Positions 3,776 to 21,302 of a DNA stretch of 64,000 nt are shown one piece after another. How positions within the stretch are numbered: position 1 is the first letter of the stretch; each line of letters starts with the position of its first letter. The notes below the pieces were generated by a model, which saw nothing but the letters and a program-made list of their open reading frames with translations, was not told the origin of the DNA and did no database searches. The stretch is from a virus, in the IMG/VR virus record IMGVR_UViG_3300037493_002747, positions 1-64,000 of that record; one strand, 5' to 3'. A program made the translations under genes and the position numbers.

Positions 3776-4509
3776 ACCAGTCGAATCTAATGGAATTTGA
3801 AAAGGAGGATTGGATTCATGATCTTCCTGAAAAGGGGGTTCACATATATTCACAGGTATGTCAAGATGGGCGTCTCGACTATATTTTTGAAAATGTGGGA
3901 ACCACCAACAAGATTTGTGTAGAATTTGGTTTCAACACAGATGTATTGACGGGTGGTTCCGGGGCCAATACTGCCAACCTAATACTCAACAAAGGATGGA
4001 CGGGGGTATTGTTTGACAGAGATTTTGAAAACCACTCTATCAATCTTTACAAAGAAACACTTACATGTGAAAACATAAGTGAGGTGTTCAAGAGATACGC
4101 CATACCACCCATCTTTGATTACTTATCCATCGACGTTGACAGTATCGATTTGTGGCTGATGAAAGCCGTGTTAAGTGGTGGCTTTAGGCCGAGAGTTATG
4201 ACGGTCGAATACAATTCCGGCTTTGATATAGGCACAAGCTTAACACTCAAAAAGCAAGGGTCGTTGGTTGGTGGTGCGGGGTATGGAGCATCATTACTGG
4301 CATTGGTAAGGGCTGCCGCAGAGTTCAATTATTCTCTGGTCTGTGTTGAAAGCGGACTAGACCTATTTTTTGTAGACAATGCGTTGCTGGCGGATTGCAA
4401 CATTCCAGACATATCCTCCTTTGAGAGCCACACAAAGATATGTTACCACGGGGGATTCACTCAAGAGATTTTGGCAGAATTTGTGGAGTATCCAGTGGTA
4501 GACGAGTGA
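3772..4509 (+). CDS. FkbM-type SAM methyltransferase
   Basis: A 245-residue protein whose ATG overlaps the methylase stop (ATGA). KICVEFGFNTD (about residue 47) followed by GWTGVLFDRD (about 79) matches the FkbM/Methyltransf_21 SAM-binding site, and DYLSIDVDSIDLWLM (about residues 120-134) is the second conserved block. These enzymes usually O-methylate sugars or small molecules. Codon usage returns to that of the rest of the phage, so the preceding methylase, not this gene, looks foreign. Confidence 0.7.
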   Translation: MNQSNLMEFEKEDWIHDLPEKGVHIYSQVCQDGRLDYIFENVGTTNKICVEFGFNTDVLTGGSGANTANLILNKGWTGVLFDRDFENHSINLYKETLTCENISEVFKRYAIPPIFDYLSIDVDSIDLWLMKAVLSGGFRPRVMTVEYNSGFDIGTSLTLKKQGSLVGGAGYGASLLALVRAAAEFNYSLVCVESGLDLFFVDNALLADCNIPDISSFESHTKICYHGGFTQEILAEFVEYPVVDE

Positions 4510-4515
4510 TTCTAG

Positions 4516-4544
4516 CCGTATTTTAGCTCACCTCCGGCAATGTA
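4516..4544 (+). promoter_or_regulatory. CCGTATT-N14-GCAATGTA element, copy 1
   Basis: CCGTATT at 4516-4522 and GCAATGTA at 4537-4544 are separated by exactly 14 bp. The element lies in the gap before the 4566 gene, with an AAGGAGATT ribosome binding site downstream. It is the first of nine copies in this window. Confidence 0.75.
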
Positions 4545-4565
4545 CTATTACAAGGAGATTGAGCT

Positions 4566-5063
4566 ATGAATACGGAAAACTATAAGGGTCGGGTTGTTGA
4601 GACGGGGACTCATGAGTATCGGATGAGCGACTACAGCGAGTTCGGTCGGTATGCCATCATTCTCTTGAACGATGGTACTTACTTCCGGGTTCAAGGTTAT
4701 GACCTCAAGGTCGAGGTAGATGCCTCTCCTGAGCAGGTTCAGGCGTACAAAGACCATGTTGCGGCTGCAAAGGCTGCTTCTATGGCCAAGATTGCAGCCG
4801 ACAGGGCTGAACTTGAGGCCAAAACTCCCAGAATTGGCAAGCTGGTTCGTGTCGTCAAGGGGCGCAAGGTGGCCATCGGCACGGAAGGTATCCTCTTCTG
4901 GATGAAGGAAATGACCTTCACTCCCCGGTTTCGGAATGGTTACAAGAAGGGTCCGGATACAGTCAAGATCGGGATTGCCTTGGATGATGCCAAGGATGCC
5001 CGTGGCCGGTTCGTCAACGTGGCGTGGAGCTACATCCAGAACATTGAGGTTGTGGCGGCATGA
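4566..5063 (+). CDS. Unknown protein with KOW-like segment
   Basis: A 165-residue soluble protein of unknown function. The middle is an alanine-rich helix (about residues 60-85), and GKLVRVVKGRKVAIGTEGILFW (about residues 95-116) resembles a KOW-type beta-barrel motif found in nucleic-acid-binding proteins. It is the first gene after promoter-like copy 1 and ends in an ATGA overlap with the next gene, so the two are probably cotranscribed. Confidence 0.65.
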   Translation: MNTENYKGRVVETGTHEYRMSDYSEFGRYAIILLNDGTYFRVQGYDLKVEVDASPEQVQAYKDHVAAAKAASMAKIAADRAELEAKTPRIGKLVRVVKGRKVAIGTEGILFWMKEMTFTPRFRNGYKKGPDTVKIGIALDDAKDARGRFVNVAWSYIQNIEVVAA

Positions 5064-5278
5064 AGTGGGTTGGGAATACACTTGTTCTATCTGATGGTAG
5101 CCTATTCACAGTCAACGAAGGCAATCTGGAACTTCGGGGGCAAGGCTGGGAGAGGCGGCGGAAGAAGGGTGATACCGAGAACACTGATTTGGCACGAATC
5201 TGTAGGTTTGAAGACGACGGCATGGCACGGAAAATCGCAGAAATGTTGGGGGAAATGGTAGAGGACACCGTATTCTGA
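5060..5278 (+). CDS. Small unknown protein
   Basis: A 72-residue charged protein beginning in an ATGA overlap with the gene upstream. It has a basic WERRRKK stretch near residue 31 and an acidic C-terminus. No family is recognised. Its stop codon lies inside the next CCGTATT element. Confidence 0.6.
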   Translation: MKWVGNTLVLSDGSLFTVNEGNLELRGQGWERRRKKGDTENTDLARICRFEDDGMARKIAEMLGEMVEDTVF

Positions 5279-5296
5279 CGGACTTCCGGCAATGTA
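5268..5296 (+). promoter_or_regulatory. CCGTATT-N14-GCAATGTA element, copy 2
   Basis: CCGTATT at 5268-5274 and GCAATGTA at 5289-5296, spacer 14. It overlaps the stop of the preceding gene. The ATG of the next gene begins at the last base of the box, with another ATG six bases on, so the transcript would have no room for a leader. Confidence 0.75.
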
Positions 5297-5850
5297 TGAG
5301 TATGAAAGTCACAGACATCAATCGTTATTACAGGAGTCCCAATACCACAACAGTGACTTGGGCATATCTCGAAAACACACTAGCTAGTTACGCCGATACA
5401 TGCGGTCTTCCTGGATGTCTTGGTCTGAATCTTGACCCAGACTTTCAGCGGGGACACGTTTGGTCTGAAGACAAGCAGATCGCATTTGTCGAGTTTTGCC
5501 TTCGTGAAGGGCAATACTCTCGTACCATTTTGTTCAATCACCCCGGATGGAATGATGACTATGCAGGGGAGATGGTCCTAGTGGACGGGAAACAACGGCT
5601 GGAGGCAGTCCGGAAGTTCATGCGGAACGAATTGCCCATCTTCGGTGGGAATCGGTTGAATGACTTCGATAATCCAAAGAGACTTTTGCGTACGAATGGG
5701 GCACATTTATTGTTCGGCATCAATACCTTGCAGACTCGCCGGGAGATTTTGGAGTGGTACTTGCAGATCAACACTGGTGGTGTTGTCCATACGGCTGAAG
5801 AGATTGCCAAGGTTGAGAGAATGCTTATCTCTGAGAATGGAGTTCAATGA
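5296..5850 (+). CDS. DUF262 / GmrSD-type ParB-like domain protein
   Basis: A 184-residue protein with the DUF262 signature: an N-terminal helix region, the PDFQRGHVWSEDKQ box (about residues 48-61) and LVDGKQRLEAVRKFM (about residues 95-109), equivalent to the DGQQRL motif of GmrS/ParB-like nucleotide-dependent proteins. In larger relatives this domain binds nucleotide and works with an HNH effector; here it stands alone. The start (5296, or 5302) is placed by the match of the N-terminus to the family. No Shine-Dalgarno precedes it, and it begins at the edge of a promoter-like element, suggesting leaderless translation. Confidence 0.75.
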   Translation: MSMKVTDINRYYRSPNTTTVTWAYLENTLASYADTCGLPGCLGLNLDPDFQRGHVWSEDKQIAFVEFCLREGQYSRTILFNHPGWNDDYAGEMVLVDGKQRLEAVRKFMRNELPIFGGNRLNDFDNPKRLLRTNGAHLLFGINTLQTRREILEWYLQINTGGVVHTAEEIAKVERMLISENGVQ

Positions 5851-6581
5851 AGACGTTACTGTCTGTCGATTGGGACTACTTTGTGCCTGAGCTACAGGAA
5901 TACGATCTTACACATTCTGAGTCACTGATCTTCTTGGACATGATATGGCGTAGTAGGAGTGGTCTACTGGATCACATCAAGACGACTGGGACAGAGGAAG
6001 GCTTCTGGGATCGTCTGGGAGGCTCTATGGACGGGGTAGGGCCAACATACGTTTCTGACTCCCACATGTACGCCTACCGCCTCCTGAGTGTCGTGGATCA
6101 CGTTGTATTGGTAGATGCTCACCATGACTGCTGGAAAGATGGTCGTAAGGACCATGTTTACTGTCACAACTGGTTGAGGGTGTGGTTAGCTGGTGGTAAG
6201 CATCGCAGGGTTACTTGGGTTCAGCCGGAATGGTCGAAAGGGATATTCGAGGTACCCAAGGACTTGCGGAAGCGGGTCATCATCGAAAGCGAGATCAAGG
6301 GCAAGATTGACATGGTTCATGTTTGCCGGAGTGGCTGTTGGACGCCTCCATGGTTGGACAAACAGTTCATTCAATTCGTTGATTCGCGCAAGTCGTTGAA
6401 GATCAACATGCAGGGCGAATTGCCATGGAATCCTATGGCGGAGCGATGGACTGAGGAGGATTTGAAGGAGTTGCGGGATCGTGAGGATCGGATTCAGGAT
6501 GCCATTAGGGGGATCAAGACAGGGGTTATGTCGAGTTCCTCATTTTTGGAAGCTAGGGTGGAATTGGCGGCTTCGGCATGA
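5847..6581 (+). CDS. Putative arginase-fold (UPF0489-like) hydrolase
   Basis: A 244-residue protein opening with SVDWDYFVPE and carrying VLVDAHHDCW (about residues 87-96). Paired acidic and histidine motifs of this kind coordinate metals in the ureohydrolase/UPF0489 fold, hence the tentative name. The substrate is unknown. The start overlaps the preceding stop (ATGA), and the end overlaps a small cysteine-rich gene. Confidence 0.5.
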   Translation: MKTLLSVDWDYFVPELQEYDLTHSESLIFLDMIWRSRSGLLDHIKTTGTEEGFWDRLGGSMDGVGPTYVSDSHMYAYRLLSVVDHVVLVDAHHDCWKDGRKDHVYCHNWLRVWLAGGKHRRVTWVQPEWSKGIFEVPKDLRKRVIIESEIKGKIDMVHVCRSGCWTPPWLDKQFIQFVDSRKSLKINMQGELPWNPMAERWTEEDLKELRDREDRIQDAIRGIKTGVMSSSSFLEARVELAASA

Positions 6582-6751: not shown

Positions 6752-6757
6752 TTTCAT

Positions 6758-14219: not shown

Positions 14220-14681
14220 ATGACTCGTGAATATGCAATTGCTAGCCGGTTGGTTTCTGCTTCGCACCAAAGGAAGGCGGCGACAGTTGACATTGTTCAG
14301 GATAGAATTTCAGAAGCCATAAGGTCTCTGAGTTATCTTCCAGTGGAACACTCTTTCCAGGATAGTCGTCAGGGGAAGATGGCCAAGGATAAGGTCAGCA
14401 AGGCATTGTCTTTATTGGAGGAAGTTCTATCGGACCTGCCGACACCTGTGACATACACGGTATATGGGTTGCCTGGGGTGGGCTCATTCTCCGATGTTCA
14501 GGATTTTGAAAGAGCGTTGGCGGCTAAGGGTATTCGCAAGATTGGTGTGTCAAGAAGCCAGTCTCTCCGTAAAGAATTGCAGGGGCAACCGATGTTTGAT
14601 AGTCTTCTTGGGCCGATGTATGATGGTCCTAAGAAGGTCAGGTATGAGACCTCTGACGTGAATGACACGCTTTCGAGGTAG
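14220..14681 (+). CDS. Unknown protein
   Basis: A 153-residue protein. Its N-terminus (MTREYAIASRLVSA) resembles the recurring RIAxxLVA-type motif of other proteins here. A helical half is followed by a glycine-containing segment. GAGACTTGT before the ATG is a weak ribosome binding site. Function unknown. Confidence 0.55.
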   Translation: MTREYAIASRLVSASHQRKAATVDIVQDRISEAIRSLSYLPVEHSFQDSRQGKMAKDKVSKALSLLEEVLSDLPTPVTYTVYGLPGVGSFSDVQDFERALAAKGIRKIGVSRSQSLRKELQGQPMFDSLLGPMYDGPKKVRYETSDVNDTLSR

Positions 14682-14685
14682 GATT

Positions 14686-15558
14686 ATGTCACAGAATGCA
14701 AACGAACGTTCGGGACTGGCCTCAAAGTATCTGCCAGTTACACCACCTAGAAAGAATCTTCATCGCATTGCTATGGACTTATTGGGGATGGCCAAGTCTT
14801 TTCTAGCAGATGATAAATGGGAAGCCCCGGAAGGTGATCGTAAGAATTGGCGGAAACGGAATCAGGATGGCAGTTACGAGTACCGGGAAACTCCGCCAGA
14901 TGGTAATGCCCCAAGTCAGAAGAAGGATGAGTCGCAAGTAAAGATGTCTCCAAAGAATGAGGAGACAGGTGAAAAACCAAAGAAACGAATTCAGTATAAG
15001 TCGTACCTCAAGTTGGATAAACCTAAGCTGCAAGAGATTCTCACAAAGGGACATTATTCGCTAATATCGGCTGGCAAGAATAGTAGTGATCCCAAAGAAG
15101 CACTGATGAAAGCAGATGACGAGTTTTTCCATAAGAGACATGAGGAATTGAGAGGTGAGTTGGAGAAGGCTGGACTTCCTTACACGGAAGTAGTTGGACA
15201 TTATGGCGGAGGAAAGGAAAACACATTCTTGGTGTTTCACGATGATACTGAACTTACTCCGAAAACGGAAAAAGCCATAATGGTACATCATCGAGACGAA
15301 GATGATGCTAAGAAGAATCGGACGATTCTGAATGACATGGGAAAGAAGTTCAATCAAGAGAGCGTCCTACATGCCGGTAATGGTAGGAATGATATGTCTT
15401 TCACAACTGGTCCGAAGGCAGGAGTAACTTGTGGCGGCAATGGGTGGAATGAATCTGATGACGCTCTTGACAATTACACGGATATTGAATTGGAAGGAAC
15501 AAAACACACGAAGTTTCAGTTAGACATACGGGAGTGTTTTGAAAGGGGACTGTTGTGA
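14686..15558 (+). CDS. DUF3293-like protein
   Basis: A 290-residue protein. The N-terminal 100 residues are basic and low-complexity and contain LHRIAMDLLGMAKSFL. After that come YSLISAGKNSSD, the helix HKRHEELRGELEKAG, YTEVVGHYGG and ENTFLVFHDD, which follow the DUF3293 order (S/T-A-x-N, R-x-x-x-L-x-x-L, G-x-Y-G, E-x-SFLV). The function of that domain is unknown to me. The ATG at 14686 is chosen over 14662, which lies inside the preceding gene. Confidence 0.6.
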   Translation: MSQNANERSGLASKYLPVTPPRKNLHRIAMDLLGMAKSFLADDKWEAPEGDRKNWRKRNQDGSYEYRETPPDGNAPSQKKDESQVKMSPKNEETGEKPKKRIQYKSYLKLDKPKLQEILTKGHYSLISAGKNSSDPKEALMKADDEFFHKRHEELRGELEKAGLPYTEVVGHYGGGKENTFLVFHDDTELTPKTEKAIMVHHRDEDDAKKNRTILNDMGKKFNQESVLHAGNGRNDMSFTTGPKAGVTCGGNGWNESDDALDNYTDIELEGTKHTKFQLDIRECFERGLL

Positions 15559-15892: not shown

Positions 15893-16219
15893 ATGAGAAT
15901 TGGAAACATGCTCTCTAATATTGCATATGGAATATCTGGTACAAAGGTGTGTTGGGTTCGTGATGGTTCCGCTGTTTCGATTATGGCTATTCTTCCAGAG
16001 TCGAATCGGATGGCAAATAGAGAACAGTCTATTCGACTAGCAGAGAAGGCGGAACGAATAGCAGAACGAGAAGCTTCTCGCATTGGTGTTGTTATTAAGA
16101 CGGGTGCATTTATGGGTGGCGAGGGCAATGGACACATCCAAGCAACCGGCGTTGCTGAAATACCTTGGGCTCCAGACATTGAACATAGGCTATCTCTTGT
16201 CGGAATACATGAAGGTTGA
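15893..16219 (+). CDS. Unknown protein
   Basis: A 108-residue protein; the ATG at 15893 follows GGAGGTG at the proper distance and replaces an in-frame ATG at 15881 that overlaps this site. It has a charged helix (RLAEKAERIAEREASR). Function unknown. Confidence 0.55.
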   Translation: MRIGNMLSNIAYGISGTKVCWVRDGSAVSIMAILPESNRMANREQSIRLAEKAERIAEREASRIGVVIKTGAFMGGEGNGHIQATGVAEIPWAPDIEHRLSLVGIHEG

Positions 16220-16224
16220 TTTTT

Positions 16225-16287
16225 TTTACAAATACTTCCCTTGTGAGTGTATAATGTTAGTGTTCCCGCAGTAATGGGACTAACACT
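16225..16287 (+). promoter_or_regulatory. Sigma70-like -10 box and 5' leader hairpin
   Basis: TATAAT at 16250-16255 is a consensus -10; the best -35 candidate (TTTACA, 16225-16230) is 19 bp away and weak. Immediately downstream AGTGTT (16259-16264) can pair with AACACT (16282-16287), and CCC with GGG inside, forming a leader hairpin 14 bases before the ATG of the next gene. It may control translation or mRNA stability. Confidence 0.5.
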
Positions 16288-16301
16288 TAAAGGGAGATAA
16301 T

Positions 16302-16682
16302 ATGAGTCAGACCAAAGCGCAGCGCAAGAAACAACAAAAGTCGAAGTCGCGTGAGAAGCAGATCAAGAAAAACAGGAACATTCTGCGGAATGTTGCTGTA
16401 AAGAGATTCCGTCTTGATGTGCATATGGGGGATGATTGGAAGATTGGAGTACGACAGTGGTCCAATATTCAGCAGGTAGAAGCTCATAGAGTAGAAACTG
16501 AAGCTCGTCGTGCCAAGGGCGAGGAGATTCTGATGGGTCGGGTGGTTGATATGGCCATTGGCAATGGCAAGGTGATCTTGAACATTCCTGGAGCAACGCC
16601 AAAGCCAAAGGGTATGGCACCTGACAAGATCGCAGATGGTGCAAAGGCTTGGGATTGTGAGTACGATTCTGGCACCAAGTAA
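16302..16682 (+). CDS. Unknown basic protein
   Basis: A 126-residue protein with a very basic, glutamine-rich N-terminal 30 residues (KAQRKKQQKSKSREKQIKK), likely nucleic-acid binding. AAAGGGAGA precedes the ATG. It is the last protein gene before the RNA island and has its own sigma70-like -10 box and leader hairpin. Family unknown. Confidence 0.6.
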   Translation: MSQTKAQRKKQQKSKSREKQIKKNRNILRNVAVKRFRLDVHMGDDWKIGVRQWSNIQQVEAHRVETEARRAKGEEILMGRVVDMAIGNGKVILNIPGATPKPKGMAPDKIADGAKAWDCEYDSGTK

Positions 16683-16701
16683 GAAACTCTGAAAATTTCT
16701 C

Positions 16702-16730
16702 CGTATTTTGCAGGGCGGTTGGCAATGTAT
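16702..16730 (+). promoter_or_regulatory. CCGTATT-N14-GCAATGTA element, copy 8
   Basis: CCGTATT at 16702-16708 and GCAATGTA at 16723-16730, spacer 14. No coding frame follows; a long RNA stem starts at 16745, so this copy probably drives a noncoding RNA. Confidence 0.75.
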
Positions 16731-16744
16731 GGATGTGCGGATGT

Positions 16745-16914
16745 TCTACTGAGGATTCGGGCGTTGTTATAGCAAACCGAGTCATTGGTTTAGCGGCCAA
16801 CAAGACAGGGGCGTAAGGCGACAACGAAAAGTGGTTTAGCGGCCTCTCCCGAGTCTTCAGTAGAGCATCTGAGTGTGAGGCGATAAAGTGGGTTCAATTC
16901 CCATCAGTAGTAGG
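16745..16914 (+). ncRNA. Structured RNA with tRNA-like T arm (candidate Y-type RNA)
   Basis: CTACTGAGGATTCGGG (16747-16762) pairs with 16849-16864 along 16 bp with two wobbles; two further pairs extend it outward. Inside, CGTTGT pairs with ACAACG and AAACC with GGTTT. Downstream, GTGGG-TTCAATT-CCCAT (16889-16905) is a textbook T arm, and CAGTAG right after it can also pair with 16747-16752 like an acceptor stem. A long terminal stem plus tRNA mimicry is the plan of bacterial Y RNAs (YrlA type), partners of Ro60/TROVE proteins, and a TROVE gene lies 2.2 kb downstream. Promoter copy 8 ends 14 bp upstream. Y-RNA identity is inference; a degenerate or interrupted tRNA is the alternative. Confidence 0.45.
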
Positions 16915-16957
16915 GTCAGCCCGAACCTGGGACGGTATGGATCGTGGCTTTACATGT

Positions 16958-16969
16958 TCTTTGACAATT
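16958..16969 (+). promoter_or_regulatory. TTCTTTGATATTC-type element in the RNA island
   Basis: TTCTTTGACAAT followed by TTGAGACGAGTG strongly resembles the sequence at the tmRNA start (TTCTTTGATATAT then GGGGACGAGTG). It probably starts a further noncoding transcript near 16971. Confidence 0.45.
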
Positions 16970-17509
16970 TGAGACGAGTGATGGGTGGTAGGCTCAGAAG
17001 CAGCCATCCATAAAAAGTGAGTCGCTGAGTTCTAATCCGTGAGAGCCGCTGGAAAAGTGGCTAGTCGGATAGGCGAACAGAGATTGGGTAGGCGGGACGG
17101 GACCCGATGTCAGGACTTGTAGTGTTGTAGTCTAAAGCTGTAGATTTTTACGGCATAAAGTCTACTGTAGCTCAGTCTTGAGTGTACTGCTCTGTTGTGC
17201 GGCGTTAGAAGGTTGCGGCTTCCATGGAAGATGTAGAAAGTTCGTGTGGTTGACTTAGTATCTTCCAAGGCCAAACTCAACTGCATGGTGGACTCTTTGG
17301 CGTAATAGCAAACCCATCACAAGTCTTTTCTGGGATCAGTCGTGGAGCTAAGAATGTTAAAAACATTTGGACTAAGAAGCGACTCAAGTCATGGCTATGA
17401 AAGTGGGCCATGAGATTCCAGCGGACCATCAGCGAGCCGAATTACGCTGGGATGAAGCGAGTTGCAAAAGCGGCAAGCGGATTCCGAATAGAGTCGGTGG
17501 GATCGAGAT

Positions 17510-17585
17510 CTGATTGGATTCGGTGGGTTCCTGTTCTGATTAGAGTAGTCTGATTAGATTCGGTGGGTTCCTGTTCTGATTAGAA
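17510..17585 (+). repeat. Two-copy 36-bp direct repeat
   Basis: Copies at 17510-17545 and 17550-17585 differ at one position (G/A at 17517/17557) and are separated by GTAG. Core: ATTCGGTGGGTTCCTGTTCT. A shorter related run (AGTCGGTGGGATC) lies just upstream. With two copies and a 4-bp gap this is not a CRISPR array. Confidence 0.85.
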
Positions 17586-17849
17586 GATCATCCCGTAAAC
17601 TTGTGGTCCGGTCTTTTTTGAATCTCGTGATAACAGAAGTTAAATCTCCTGTAGTATGCCAAGTTGTATAGGTATAGGAGATTCTTATGCGGCAAGACGG
17701 TTTCTAAGCCCGTCTACGAGCATTTTTGTAGCATTGTGTGCAAACCCGACAGGAGAGGCACACGACAAGCGCAGATAGAAAAGGCCGCTCATGGCTCGTG
17801 AATAGGGAAGAGAGAGGTCGTAGGGTGTACAACCGAAAACCCAATCTTG

Positions 17850-17929
17850 TCTAGCTTAGATGGTGGAGGGTGACGGGGAAACCTGTCGCCCCTGACTCGA
17901 AAGGGCGTTCGTGGAAATCGAACTAGACC
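17850..17929 (+). ncRNA. tRNA-like multi-hairpin fold of unknown identity
   Basis: An 80-base segment closed by GTCTA/TAGAC and containing three arms in order: GACGGG-GAAA-CCTGTC (17873-17888), GCCC/GGGC (17889-17907) and GTTCG-TGGAAAT-CGAAC (17908-17924, 5-bp stem and 7-base loop). The layout is cloverleaf-like, but the last loop lacks TTCRANY and no 7-base anticodon loop is seen, so it is not a normal tRNA. It could be a tRNA mimic or part of a larger RNA. Confidence 0.35.
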
Positions 17930-18085
17930 TGTGATGGCGACCGTAGCACCACAGAGACGAGTAGCAGGTCGAAATAAACGTGGATCGGTGACAGTCGGGA
18001 GAGTACCGACAACTTTTTTGTTAGGTTTTGCTGTCTGTGGGTATAATGACTCATGGAGAAAAGAAGTGTGTGATGATTTTTCTTC

Positions 18086-18114
18086 CGTATTTGACACGGA
18101 GTGTGGCAATGTAG
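18086..18114 (+). promoter_or_regulatory. CCGTATT-N14-GCAATGTA element, copy 9 (tmRNA)
   Basis: CCGTATT at 18086-18092 and GCAATGTA at 18107-18114, spacer 14, ending 29 bp before the mature tmRNA 5' end. With the element at 18131 it gives the tmRNA two phage-type promoters. Confidence 0.75.
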
Positions 18115-18130
18115 TGTCAGATTTGATTGT

Positions 18131-18143
18131 TCTTTGATATATG
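18131..18143 (+). promoter_or_regulatory. TTCTTTGATATTC-type element at the tmRNA start
   Basis: TTCTTTGATATAT immediately precedes the GGGGACG 5' end of tmRNA at 18144, as expected if this motif acts as a -10-like box with initiation about 7 bases downstream. This anchors the position of the motif relative to an RNA end. Confidence 0.55.
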
Positions 18144-18554
18144 GGGACGAGTGGTTTCGACGAGTGTTATTGAAACTGGTCGACATGCCGAGGACACAGG
18201 TGGGCCTCGTAAATCATCCTGTAAAAAAACAACTGCCAACACTTTTGGCAAGGTGATTCGTGGTTTCTTTGGAGTGGCTGCTGAGGCTACTCCGATGCTT
18301 GCCGCTGCCTAAACAGGCACACCTCCAAAACTCCGGAGTTTCTATGACAACCGGATGAGGATCAAAGAGAATAGATGACGGTCTGCAAAGACAGGCGATG
18401 CCGGGAATGAGACGCACCGGGGCGGATAGTCGAAGACATCCCTGAAAGAAGGGATAGACCAAGTCCGTGGTCGAGAAACATCGTGACGAAGCATGTGTAT
18501 GTTCAGTTGATTTATTATTCGGACAGGGGGTTCGACTCCCCCTCGTCTCCACCA
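18144..18554 (+). ncRNA. ssrA: Transfer-messenger RNA (tmRNA)
   Basis: A complete 411-base tmRNA. The 5' end GGGGACG pairs with CGTCTCC near the 3' end; the third pair is G-U, the alanine identity signal G3-U70. GGGGG-TTCGACT-CCCCC is a perfect T arm, and ACCA is encoded (18551-18554). CATGCCGAGG and GGCCTCGTAAA are the conserved stem preceding the tag region in bacterial tmRNAs. The resume codon is GCC at 18235. It would rescue stalled ribosomes and tag nascent chains, either supporting or redirecting host trans-translation. No smpB gene is visible in this window, so host SmpB is presumably used. Confidence 0.95.
18235..18312 (+). other. tmRNA tag-peptide reading frame
   Basis: Twenty-five sense codons from the resume GCC to TAA. 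The peptide begins A-N-T-F-G-K-V-I and ends P-M-L-A-A-A. It keeps the AN start and the hydrophobic LAA-type protease signal of bacterial tags but is longer than the 10-11 residues common in well-known bacteria and ends in three alanines. Confidence 0.8.
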
Positions 18555-18588
18555 TTTTCAGAGATAATGAGGAAAGTTTGAAAAAGTG

Positions 18589-18618
18589 TTGAAAACTTAC
18601 TCGTTGTCGGAGTATAGT
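18589..18618 (+). promoter_or_regulatory. Sigma70-like promoter after tmRNA
   Basis: TTGAAA (18589-18594), an 18-bp spacer and TATAGT (18613-18618). Initiation near 18625 would produce the hairpin-array RNA listed next and perhaps read into the tRNA. Confidence 0.5.
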
Positions 18619-18624
18619 GATTTG

Positions 18625-18815
18625 TGAACGAAGTCAGGCTCCTTCAGGACTGGGTTACTTCATTACAAAAGCGAAAAAATCTCGGCGGTCTATGAGGACC
18701 GAAATTGAGATGACGATCTGCAAAGACAGAGTGGAATTCCGGGAAGACGGAATGGAGGCGTGGGAAGACACGCAAATGACAGCTCGGAAAGACGGCTTAC
18801 CTAGGACGAATATCG
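18625..18815 (+). ncRNA. Hairpin-array RNA sharing a block with tmRNA
   Basis: A run of short hairpins: GAAGT/ACTTC at the 5' end, CGGTC-TATGA-GACCG (near 18686-18701), TTCCG-GGAAGA-CGGAA and GCGTG-GGAAGA-CACGC, the last two with the same GGAAGA loop. GATGACGATCTGCAAAGACAG (18709-18729) matches 20 of 21 bases of the tmRNA segment 18374-18394, so part of this RNA may derive from a duplicated tmRNA 3' domain. A 68-codon frame crosses the region but has no ribosome binding site or recognisable product and is not called. Confidence 0.45.
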
Positions 18816-18855
18816 GAGTTTGATGGAGTTCTTGAGTTTTTGCTTGATACCTTCA

Positions 18856-18890
18856 GTTTGGGGTTACTTCTTGGTGAAAAACCCCCAAAC
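18856..18890 (+). other. Stable hairpin upstream of the tRNA
   Basis: GTTTGGGG (18856-18863) pairs perfectly with CCCCAAAC (18883-18890). It has no T tract, so it is more likely a processing or stability element of the tRNA precursor than an intrinsic terminator. Confidence 0.5.
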
Positions 18891-18914
18891 GATTATTGGT
18901 GTCGGCTATATTAT

Positions 18915-18991
18915 TGCGGGGTAGAGCAGCCCGGTAGCTTATCAGGCTCATAACCTGAAGGTCGCTGGTTCAAATCCAGCCCCCGCAACCA
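18915..18991 (+). tRNA. tRNA-Met(CAT), initiator type
   Basis: A 77-base cloverleaf with TGCGGGG/CCCCGCA acceptor stem, anticodon loop CTCATAA (anticodon CAT), T arm CTGG-TTCAAAT-CCAG and encoded ACCA. The sequence follows bacterial initiator tRNA-fMet closely (AGAGCAGCCCGGTAGCTT D region, AAGGTCG variable region). The first pair is T1-A72 rather than the strong G-C of elongators, keeping a weak end as initiators do. The anticodon stem has two of the three usual consecutive G-C pairs. A phage initiator tRNA could favour phage start codons. Confidence 0.9.
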
Positions 18992-18997
18992 ATAAAG

Positions 18998-19030
18998 GCC
19001 GGACATCAATAAAAGGATGTTCGGCTTTTT
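18998..19030 (+). terminator. Rho-independent terminator after tRNA-Met
   Basis: GCCGGACATC (18998-19007) pairs with GATGTTCGGC (19016-19025, one G-U), followed by TTTTT. It separates the RNA genes from the TROVE gene. Confidence 0.85.
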
Positions 19031-19054
19031 CTTTGTATCGAATCGTGTAGGTTC

Positions 19055-19098
19055 AATGTTCTGTGTGGAACATTGGGAATAAGGGTGCCGAAAGGCAC
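19055..19098 (+). promoter_or_regulatory. Structured 5' leader of the TROVE gene
   Basis: Two clean hairpins lie between the terminator and the TROVE start: AATGTTC/GAACATT (19055-19074) and GTGCC-GAAA-GGCAC (19085-19098, a GNRA tetraloop). GGTG/CACC can form a third stem just before the AAGGAGGT ribosome binding site. Because the encoded protein family binds structured RNA, autoregulation through this leader is possible. Confidence 0.4.
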
Positions 19099-19140
19099 AA
19101 AATTGGTGGTAGAGATATCACCTTCAAGGAGGTAAGAGAA

Positions 19141-20895
19141 GTGAATAAGGTAAAGAAGGTCGCAAGGAGTAGGGCTTCGGTAGCAAGTCTGCCGAGCAAC
19201 GCAAAGGCCGCATCGGTAAACCGGGCGGGCGGAGTGGCATTCGAGGTAAATGATCCGGCATTGAAGTTGATCACCATGACTGGTGGGTCTTTCTTCGCCG
19301 AGCCGAGGTTCTATAACGCAGAGGCATGTGTACCTAAGCGTGGGACTGGCGGTAAGTTCGAGAAGCTGGCAGCGAGGCTAGAGATCGTGGATGGCAAGCT
19401 GAAGGGCTTTGTCACCTGTGATGAGCTTCCTGAGACGGCTCGTGAGGTTATCGCAACGGCTATCGATGTCGCCAAGGGTAAGACCCCGGAGGACATGCTG
19501 GCAATCGCCAACTGGCTTCGTAATGAGATGAACATCCGGATGACCCCGCAGATTTTGCTGGTGTTGGCATCTCAGATGGATGGGACTAAGTCACTGGTTC
19601 GGAAGTATGCGACTCACATCGTGAAGCGTCCGGATGAGGTTAAGACCTGTCTGTTGACTCATCGTTTTCTGTTCGGGCTGAAGAATCTCCCGAATGGCCT
19701 AGCGAGTGGATTGGCTGATGCTACGAGTAAGTTCGGTGAGCGTGGGTTGATGAAGTACGACGACTCTGGCTTTCCGACTTGGAAGGACGTTCTTTGCTGG
19801 CTTCCGCGTAAGGCTGGATGGCCGCTGAGTGCTGAGGTCGCCAAGTATTTCATCACCGGCAAGATTGATGACCCGGCTAAGACTCCGATCATCGCGGCTC
19901 GTAAGGAGTTGGTGAAGAAGACTGTGTTCGATACCGAGGCTCGTGACCTGGCAAAGAAGTCCCAAGTCAACTGGGAGGTCTTGCTGTCTCAGTTCGGTAA
20001 GGAGAAGAACAAGGTGTGGTCGTTTCTGATCGACAACGGTCTGATTGGCTACATGGCTCTGCTCCGTAATCTGAAGAACATCTTGGAGGCGAAGGTTTCC
20101 AAGGGTGTCATTCAGAAGGTATCGGATAAGCTCTCGAACAAGGACGAGGTTGCCAAGTCAAAGCAGCTTCCGTTCAGGTTCCTGTCGGCAAAGACGGTAT
20201 TGGATACTATGTCTAGTGGTTTCGATCTTGCGGACTACTCGGAGGTCGTGGCGGCTATTGAGTTGGCGGCAAATGAGGCATGTGCCAATATCCCGGTAAT
20301 GTCGGGTGAGACCATGGTGTTTGCAGACAATTCTGGTTCGATGACGAGTGCAAAATTGTCGGAGAAGTCGGCACGGAACTGTCGTGATGCTGCAAATATG
20401 CTGTCTGGTATCGCCGCCAAGGTATGTGAGAGGCCGTACCTGTTCGCATTTGGATCGAGTCTTCAGGAGATTCGTTTTGCCAAGACGGATACCGTAATGG
20501 GTATCTGTGACAAGGTAAAGCGATCAGGGGACGGTGGTTCTACGAATGGTCACCTGTGCATTGAGCATTTGATCAAGTCTGGGAAGACTCCGGCACGGGT
20601 TATCATCCTGACGGACTGTCAGATGTGGAATGATAACAGTAACGGTGGTGGTCAGCCGTTTGCGAATGCATGGGCGAAGTACCGGAAGTCAAGTAAGGCT
20701 GCGGCGGAGACTTGGCTTCATATCGTTCACCTTTCGGGATACGGGGATAGTCCAGTGGATGTGGGAGAGAGGGTGAATCAGGTCTCTGGGTTCTCAGAGA
20801 AGGTATTCACATCGATCCTCACTGTCGAGGGAGTTATGGGATCTACTCCACTCCCTACGGTGGAGCAGGTAAGGAATGGGTGGACGGTGAAATAG
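19141..20895 (+). CDS. Ro60-like TROVE RNA-binding protein with vWA domain
   Basis: A 584-residue homologue of the Ro60/Rsr autoantigen family. Residues about 30-370 form the HEAT-like TROVE ring; the conserved GYMALLRNLKNILE (303-316) is the strongest landmark. The C-terminal von Willebrand A domain has an intact metal site, FADNSGSMTS (DxSxS at 396-400) and IILTDCQMW. Bacterial Ro proteins bind misfolded RNA and Y RNAs and can tether the exonuclease PNPase. The GTG at 19141 is chosen as start because AAGGAGGT lies 8 bases upstream; a frame extending to 19063 runs through leader hairpins. Position after tmRNA and tRNA and before a terminator suggests an RNA-handling module. Confidence 0.92.
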   Translation: MNKVKKVARSRASVASLPSNAKAASVNRAGGVAFEVNDPALKLITMTGGSFFAEPRFYNAEACVPKRGTGGKFEKLAARLEIVDGKLKGFVTCDELPETAREVIATAIDVAKGKTPEDMLAIANWLRNEMNIRMTPQILLVLASQMDGTKSLVRKYATHIVKRPDEVKTCLLTHRFLFGLKNLPNGLASGLADATSKFGERGLMKYDDSGFPTWKDVLCWLPRKAGWPLSAEVAKYFITGKIDDPAKTPIIAARKELVKKTVFDTEARDLAKKSQVNWEVLLSQFGKEKNKVWSFLIDNGLIGYMALLRNLKNILEAKVSKGVIQKVSDKLSNKDEVAKSKQLPFRFLSAKTVLDTMSSGFDLADYSEVVAAIELAANEACANIPVMSGETMVFADNSGSMTSAKLSEKSARNCRDAANMLSGIAAKVCERPYLFAFGSSLQEIRFAKTDTVMGICDKVKRSGDGGSTNGHLCIEHLIKSGKTPARVIILTDCQMWNDNSNGGGQPFANAWAKYRKSSKAAAETWLHIVHLSGYGDSPVDVGERVNQVSGFSEKVFTSILTVEGVMGSTPLPTVEQVRNGWTVK

Positions 20896-20915
20896 TGGCC
20901 TAGAAAGGCTATTTG

Positions 20916-20953
20916 GAGGGGGTGGTGTCGAAAGGCATTGCCCCCTCTTTTTT
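20916..20953 (+). terminator. Rho-independent terminator after the TROVE gene
   Basis: GAGGGGG (20916-20922) pairs with CCCCCTC (20941-20947), with an inner stem closed by a GAAA loop, followed by TTTTTT. Confidence 0.9.
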
Positions 20954-21006
20954 GTTGTTGTAACAAATCTTTGATAAGCGGATAACAGGTATAGGTAGTG
21001 TAATAA

Positions 21007-21018
21007 TTGTTTGATATT
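21007..21018 (+). promoter_or_regulatory. TTCTTTGATATTC-type element
   Basis: TAATAATTGTTTGATATT shares the AT-rich flank and core with the copies at 25293 and 30222. A related ATCTTTGATA lies 40 bp upstream. It precedes the gene at 21066. Confidence 0.5.
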
Positions 21019-21065
21019 TGATACAAGGGTGTAGGGTAGTGAAAGACAATATGGAGGACAAAGTC

Positions 21066-21302
21066 ATGGGCTACAGGAAGAATCCGACGGATAAGAACCA
21101 GAATGAGATTGAGGGAGCAGCATTTGAGCAAGGCGTTCCGGTTTTTACAGATGATAAGACTCGTGTTGTTGCCAAGGGGTTGCAGACGGCACCTCTGAGA
21201 ACGGCGCATGGTTCTGCACAAGGTGGAGAGCGAAACAACGCTGGTGTTGTGATGCCGCCTAGTGACAAGCCTGGCAAGTTCGAGCAACCTGGGAAGGCGT
21301 AA
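21066..21302 (+). CDS. Unknown small protein
   Basis: A 78-residue glycine/proline-containing, probably flexible protein. The ATG at 21066 lies 8 bases after GGAGG (21053-21057); longer in-frame starts would cover this site. Function unknown. Confidence 0.55.
   Translation: MGYRKNPTDKNQNEIEGAAFEQGVPVFTDDKTRVVAKGLQTAPLRTAHGSAQGGERNNAGVVMPPSDKPGKFEQPGKA

Follow-up and report, generated by a model that had tools for sequence, protein, structure and literature searches.

The 64-kb window analyzed here, part of the 75,760-base virus record IMGVR_UViG_3300037493_002747, carries upstream of a gene for a TROVE/Ro60 protein an RNA island containing a noncoding RNA (positions 16971 to 17327) that almost certainly mimics the GTPase-associated center of 23S ribosomal RNA (rRNA; helices H42, H43, and H44), with an insert within H44. 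This mimic, rather than the neighboring structured RNA (module 1) that the first-pass annotation had read as a Y-like RNA, is the strongest signal and the main finding of the island. The H43 sequence, the H44 loop, and a closing helix (P1) at the position of H42 are all present in the window, but H44 does not follow directly on the H43 junction; approximately 70 to 330 nucleotides (nt) are inserted before it in all phage members, and the element is therefore a mimic and not rRNA. A position model trained without any member from phages that encode a Ro protein (Ro phages) scores the site at 63.7 bits, with the next best site in the 64 kb at -11, and P1 in the window (-21.8 kcal/mol) is the best of 26 partners. 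The island of a relative, L002, contains an exact 21-nt copy of Escherichia coli 23S 1057 to 1077, the H43 hairpin of the center, and an H44-like loop (GGCGUAAYAGC) with flanks that pair lies 178 to 353 nt 3' of H43 in the window and in relatives L001, L002, and L017. Compared with the authentic center (E. coli 1051 to 1108, H42 to H44, the uL11/thiostrepton site), H43 is near-identical, the H44 loop is identical, and the order of junction and closing helix is the same, whereas the phage element is a separate gene with an unrelated closing-helix sequence, the H44 insert, and an altered H44 flank.

Approximately 30 distinct members make up the family; they occur in unrelated phages, many beside transfer RNA (tRNA) genes, and have an architecture of closing stem P1, H43 hairpin, variable insert within H44, and H44 loop. 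Blastn of the island gave only tRNA among the best 40 phage matches listed and no matches in E. coli genomes, so that short motifs were required for the search; members were found by exact-pattern scans, which miss diverged ones, and in all lineage counts near-duplicate loci are counted once. The H43 and H44 halves, searched separately, predict each other: scanning IMG/VR with the H44 half alone finds 30 contigs, and of the 26 that do not come from Ro phages, 18 also carry the H43 half upstream, while the H43 half alone finds 25 sites, every one with the H44 half within 400 nt downstream. P1 also covaries; across 26 nonredundant members the mean duplex energy is -16.9 kcal/mol for stems with their own partners versus -7.65 (standard deviation, 0.65) with swapped partners, and none of 20,000 permutations is as low. 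The equivalents of A1067 and A1095, the loop residues at the factor site, are invariant in 28 members; because sequence patterns were used to find the members, counts of conserved 23S positions are partly by construction, but the reciprocal prediction and P1 are not. The Rfam bacterial large-subunit rRNA model matches one member (L032) at model positions 1096 to 1145 (21.7 bits, E = 6.5e-5), falling short of the gathering score as a fragment should, and no Rfam family covers the mimic.

Named phages with the mimic are Aeromonas 4_4572, Pseudomonas pf16, UNO-G1W1, Astolliot, Cronobacter GAP32, Pectobacterium CBB, Xanthomonas XacN1 and XbC2, Serratia BF, and Erwinia SNUABM_12, and diverged forms are present in Vibrio 2.275.O and Acinetobacter ME3. 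No RNA is annotated at the mimic in the named phages, and UNO-G1W1 has a small reverse-strand open reading frame (ORF) annotated over it. The mimic is essentially phage specific: across 84,980 genomes of bacteria and archaea, a 21-nt H44 pattern occurs in one contig, which belongs to a Pricia assembly (L083) and carries the whole element, and a near-identical pattern occurs in 12 viral contigs. The Pricia antarctica copy (L083:200-420) is flanked on both sides by GTTCTTTAA. A match in Paenibacillus Pd_22F was left out of the family because the sequence is genuine 23S rRNA. Loci L075 to L081 form a jumbo-phage subtype in an intergenic gap, with shared insert motifs (CAGGGGAAG... and, before H44, GACCCUUAGAG), and in L017 and L060 the mimic is close beside a transfer-messenger RNA (tmRNA) gene.

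Mimicry of rRNA protein sites is established for host ribosomal-protein mRNA leaders, such as that for uL1 (PMC10931766), and large abundant RNAs, often near tRNAs, are established for phages, including GOLLD and ROOL (PMC12286853, PMC7567579), of which GOLLD is reported to bind ribosomes in pull-downs (PMC12286853). The leaders act in cis on ribosomal-protein mRNAs, whereas the mimic is a phage RNA in noncoding gaps or tRNA clusters. Like the mimic, GOLLD and ROOL are structured noncoding phage RNAs without an assigned function, but the mimic has an rRNA fold as its basis and is smaller than they are; identity with them was rejected, as no member scanned has a GOLLD or ROOL match at the Rfam gathering score. 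In the open-access papers searched (a collection lacking most subscription journals), no description of a phage GTPase-center RNA was found, and the mimic is apparently an undescribed, widespread phage RNA. A stand-alone, widespread phage RNA built on a functional center of 23S rRNA is new as far as we know, and it offers a testable lead to the role of some RNAs of phage tRNA clusters.

The best overall explanation, advanced tentatively from the sequences, is that the mimic draws ligands of the GTPase-associated center away from the ribosome by competition. It would very probably be transcribed as a separate, independently folded, trans-acting RNA and, with about equal likelihood either way, would bind uL11 first of all, possibly also engaging uL10/L12, translation GTPases, or RelA. 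The C-terminal domain of uL11 binds an isolated 58-nt fragment of GTPase-center rRNA, a classic complex with ready assays. The mimic might act mainly as a decoy or scaffold, with capture of the ligands lowering their activity at host ribosomes, for example by blunting the stringent response, and the boxA-like elements of the island would probably recruit host NusB/uS10 antitermination to the long untranslated RNA. Several observations weigh against competition with the ribosome. The insert is variable among members; the H44 flank differs from that of rRNA (UUUG before it and A for U1101), by which uL11 binding could be weakened; a boxA precedes the mimic in 4 of 30 members, those of Ro phages only; and the model from unrelated phages finds no mimic in Ro phages L004, L005, L021, and L022, so that mimic and Ro are not tied to each other. 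A more speculative and rather doubtful proposal, also drawn from sequence, is that large tRNA-rich phages make a ribosome-free copy of the center that joins host uL11, and perhaps uL10/L12, in capturing or triggering translation GTPases or RelA; if true, phages of many hosts would use RNA alone to control translation in the host or its stringent response.

An unlikely alternative is that the GTPase-center copy is a defense decoy, offered to rRNA-directed host toxins, nucleases, or modifying enzymes to spare the ribosome. The frequent location in tRNA clusters (tRNA or tmRNA genes lie within 3 kb, in the available flanking DNA, in 15 of the 26 members outside the Ro phages) fits this, as does an RNA-ligase-like protein of the window phage (positions 9 to 716; phrog_24030, E = 2e-65), and by analogy phage tRNAs presumably offset defenses that cleave tRNA; however, we know of no host defense aimed at H43/H44, and the rRNA-cleaving toxins known to us act at other sites. 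Improbable to a similar degree is a phage scaffold in which the mimic joins uL11 and uL10/L12 to recruit or trigger translation GTPases away from ribosomes, or to bring them to phage mRNA, the insert carrying the phage-specific part. Retention of the entire GTPase-center topology, beyond the uL11 contact, and the constant position of the insert are consistent with such a scaffold, but no insert motif is common to all members.

Somewhat less probable again is an association with Ro60, in which the phage TROVE protein would have module 1, the hairpin RNA between tmRNA and tRNA, or the mimic as its Y-RNA-like partner. The tmRNA/tRNA-Met/Ro neighborhood is kept in seven other lineages, and several of them have a CUUCAG...UUACUUC element immediately before tRNA and Ro, but a terminator-like hairpin separates the Ro gene from the island RNAs, most mimic members have no known adjoining Ro gene, and, since only a minority of members have Ro60 and tmRNA as neighbors, the mimic need not belong to a Ro particle. 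Nor is a Y-RNA identity of module 1 supported. The first-pass annotation had proposed a Y-like RNA at 16745 to 16914 with a 16- to 18-bp terminal stem and a perfect tRNA T arm as the expected Y-RNA features. A structured RNA is present there, but it is closed by a helix of 24 bp (16738 to 16761 paired with 16848 to 16871), and conservation to L001 runs from 16721 to 17409, past the proposed end. The T-arm hairpin also exists but lies outside the closed stem, and it is kept in L001 and absent from L002, where boxA comes directly after module 1. Module 1 is found in three Ro-phage lineages only (the window, L001, and L002), across which the hairpin stems change together while the loops are kept, and the covariance-model check for YrlA/Y RNA, run with Rfam over 16201 to 21100, gave no Y-RNA-type match at E ≤ 10. 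The similarity to bacterial Ro60 with its Y RNA/YrlA is thus a genuine TROVE-plus-vWA protein adjoining structured RNAs, whereas a Y RNA/YrlA identity of module 1 is unsupported, given the lack of an Rfam match and the position and inconstancy of the T arm. Module 1 with its T arm also resembles phage T4 stable RNA C (species 1), a stable RNA that is encoded among tRNAs in a cluster and has a T arm close to the 3' end, but no sequence similarity was noted, and T4 rnaC and rnaD contain no GTPase-center mimic on inspection.

A functionless origin of the mimic, as a captured piece of 23S rRNA or as contamination, is scarcely credible: the 23S identity is short and local, but this rRNA region alone recurs, with a constant insertion point and phage-specific H44 flank and with members in assembled genomes of isolated phages, and P1 covariation and the reciprocal prediction already contradict it.

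Table 1. Features of the RNA island in the 64-kb window (fold z is relative to shuffled sequences)
Feature	Position	Strand	Evidence or description
Promoter-like site, TTCCGTATT-type...GGCAATGT, before module 1	16699..16728	+	Sequence motif; putative promoter
Module 1 (earlier "Y-like RNA")	16738..16871	+	Closing helix of 24 bp and two UUAGCG-loop hairpins; fold z = -3.97
tRNA T-arm-like hairpin GUGGG-UUCAAUU-CCCAU	16888..16904	+	3' of module 1 helix; sequence and fold
boxA-like element TGTTCTTTGACA before mimic	16955..16966	+	Sequence
GTPase-associated-center mimic RNA	16971..17327	+	Model from unrelated phages, P1 covariation; fold z = -3.69
Mimic P1 stem	16971-16985/17313-17327 (core 16978-16985/17313-17320)	+	Covariation
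Mimic H43 hairpin	16991-17005	+	GGCTCAGAAGCAGCC, one mismatch to E. coli 1062-1076
Mimic H44	17296-17310	+	GGCGTAATAGC, loop GUAAUA closed by GC; insert between H43 and H44
Further structured noncoding RNA	17340..18075	+	Fold z = -3.57; 17899-18003 77% identical to L001
Second promoter-like site, before tmRNA	18083..18112	+	Sequence motif
boxA-like element 15 nt before tmRNA	18128..18139	+	Spacing of 14-16 nt also in L001, L002, L017, L021
tmRNA, tag ANTFGKVIRGFFGVAAEATPMLAAA	18143..18554	+	ARAGORN; Rfam RF00023, 117 bits
Hairpin-rich RNA between tmRNA and tRNA	18605..18905	+	Fold z = -4.35; (C/G)(A/G)AAGA loops; repeated CUUCAG...GGGUUACUUC...AUUGG
tRNA-Met (CAU), initiator-like, CCA encoded	18915..18991	+	tRNA calls
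Terminator-like hairpin with T run, 3' of tRNA	18996..19031	+	Sequence
TROVE/Ro60 protein	19141..20895	+	GTG start after AAGGAGG; PF05731 E = 1.5e-21, vWA_Ro60 1e-7, phrog_850 6e-38

Module 1 is the first part of approximately 1.4 kb of conserved noncoding DNA, the largest feature of the island and one missed by the first-pass annotation. The noncoding stretch (16683 to 18142) extends from an ORF ending at 16682 to the start of the tmRNA, and no convincing gene was seen in it, the longest ORF starting there being approximately 106 amino acids on the opposite strand; the segment conserved with L001 (16721 to 17409) has 77% identity, as high as the tmRNA. The TTCCGTATT...GGCAATGT motif precedes both RNA blocks, with further copies in the window at 6756 and 7751 and in relatives L001, L002, and L004, in agreement with the promoter earlier proposed directly upstream of the 16745 RNA. 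A general consensus promoter before the mimic is not supported (mean score, 7.6 of 12 versus 7.1 for shuffled sequences), with a perfect one in L034 and L048. The sequence TGTTCTTTGA(A/C/T)A occurs twice in the 64 kb, both times in the island (before the mimic and before the tmRNA), and the 9-mer GTTCTTTGA has 15 occurrences in the RNA islands of the window and its relatives and four elsewhere (window minus strand 8339, L016 3019, L017 minus strand 13570, and L022 10534). The island GTTCTTTGA element has the form of rRNA boxA, which binds NusB/uS10, with a putative function of that kind here.

Eight related loci were found with the Ro protein (49 to 83% identity), and an alignment gave three more divergent ones. 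The order tmRNA, tRNA-Met, Ro is kept in seven other lineages (L001, L002, L004, L005, L017, L021, and L022), while L006 and L007 have Ro without the tmRNA and tRNA-Met island RNAs. The clustering of tmRNA, hairpin RNA, initiator tRNA, and Ro60/TROVE reported earlier is thus confirmed, and because the co-location is kept, its interpretation as a translation/RNA-handling island is a fair one. The Ro protein has a TROVE domain and a vWA domain with a DxSxS...T...D metal site, whose residues (D396, S398, S400, T468, and D492) are invariant in nine relatives, and matches Ro60/Rsr structures in the PDB; a peptide-pattern search found no relatives in bacterial genomes. TROVE proteins are known in jumbo phages (PMC7824862). 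Elsewhere in the window, 14662 to 15558 has a weak match, just below the cutoff, to the S-adenosylmethionine lyase family PF23780.

The tmRNA is matched over its full length by RF00023 and has a tag ORF ending in -LAAA, and the tRNA-Met is presumably initiator-like, given its similarity to E. coli fMet tRNA. Together with the hairpin RNA, the tRNA region (18580 to 19034) is kept in L002 at 75.5%. The CUUCAG...GGGUUACUUC...AUUGG element, closed by a GAUACC/GGUGUC-type stem, recurs at 18641 to 18905 and in L004, L005, L017, L021, and L022, just upstream of the tRNA, and is a candidate Ro partner or processing element. The loop sequence of the GGAAGA hairpins invites a CsrA-sponge reading, but Csr/Rsm-type Rfam matches are far below the cutoff.

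Twister-P5 ribozymes above the Rfam cutoff are present in the RNA islands of L001 (2182 to 2270) and L002 (3436 to 3512); window positions 17640 to 17730 resemble this region in degenerate or divergent form and do not reach the twister-P5 gathering score. Also within the noncoding island, GATTCGGTGGGTTCCTGTTCTGATTAGA is present in tandem copy (17512 to 17583). The T-loop region of the L002 tmRNA (4400 to 4850), which has a weak tmRNA score, looks split by an intron-like insert of approximately 400 nt. In L004, a minus-strand ORF resembling an HNH-type endonuclease (4863 to 5443) lies 3' of the tmRNA, the 3' end of which is duplicated on the far side of the ORF, as after a mobile-element insertion. 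A tRNA-Ser-like D arm follows the tmRNA in L005 (4090 to 4130) and L021 (6760 to 6930), joined in L021 by a T arm with CCA, as another tRNA-like RNA. Finally, the RNA island of Ro phage L022 includes at 5930 to 5952 a 22-nt sequence that differs by one mismatch from E. coli 23S 1916 to 1937 (the H69-H71 region, also the I-CeuI site) and is possibly a second rRNA mimic.

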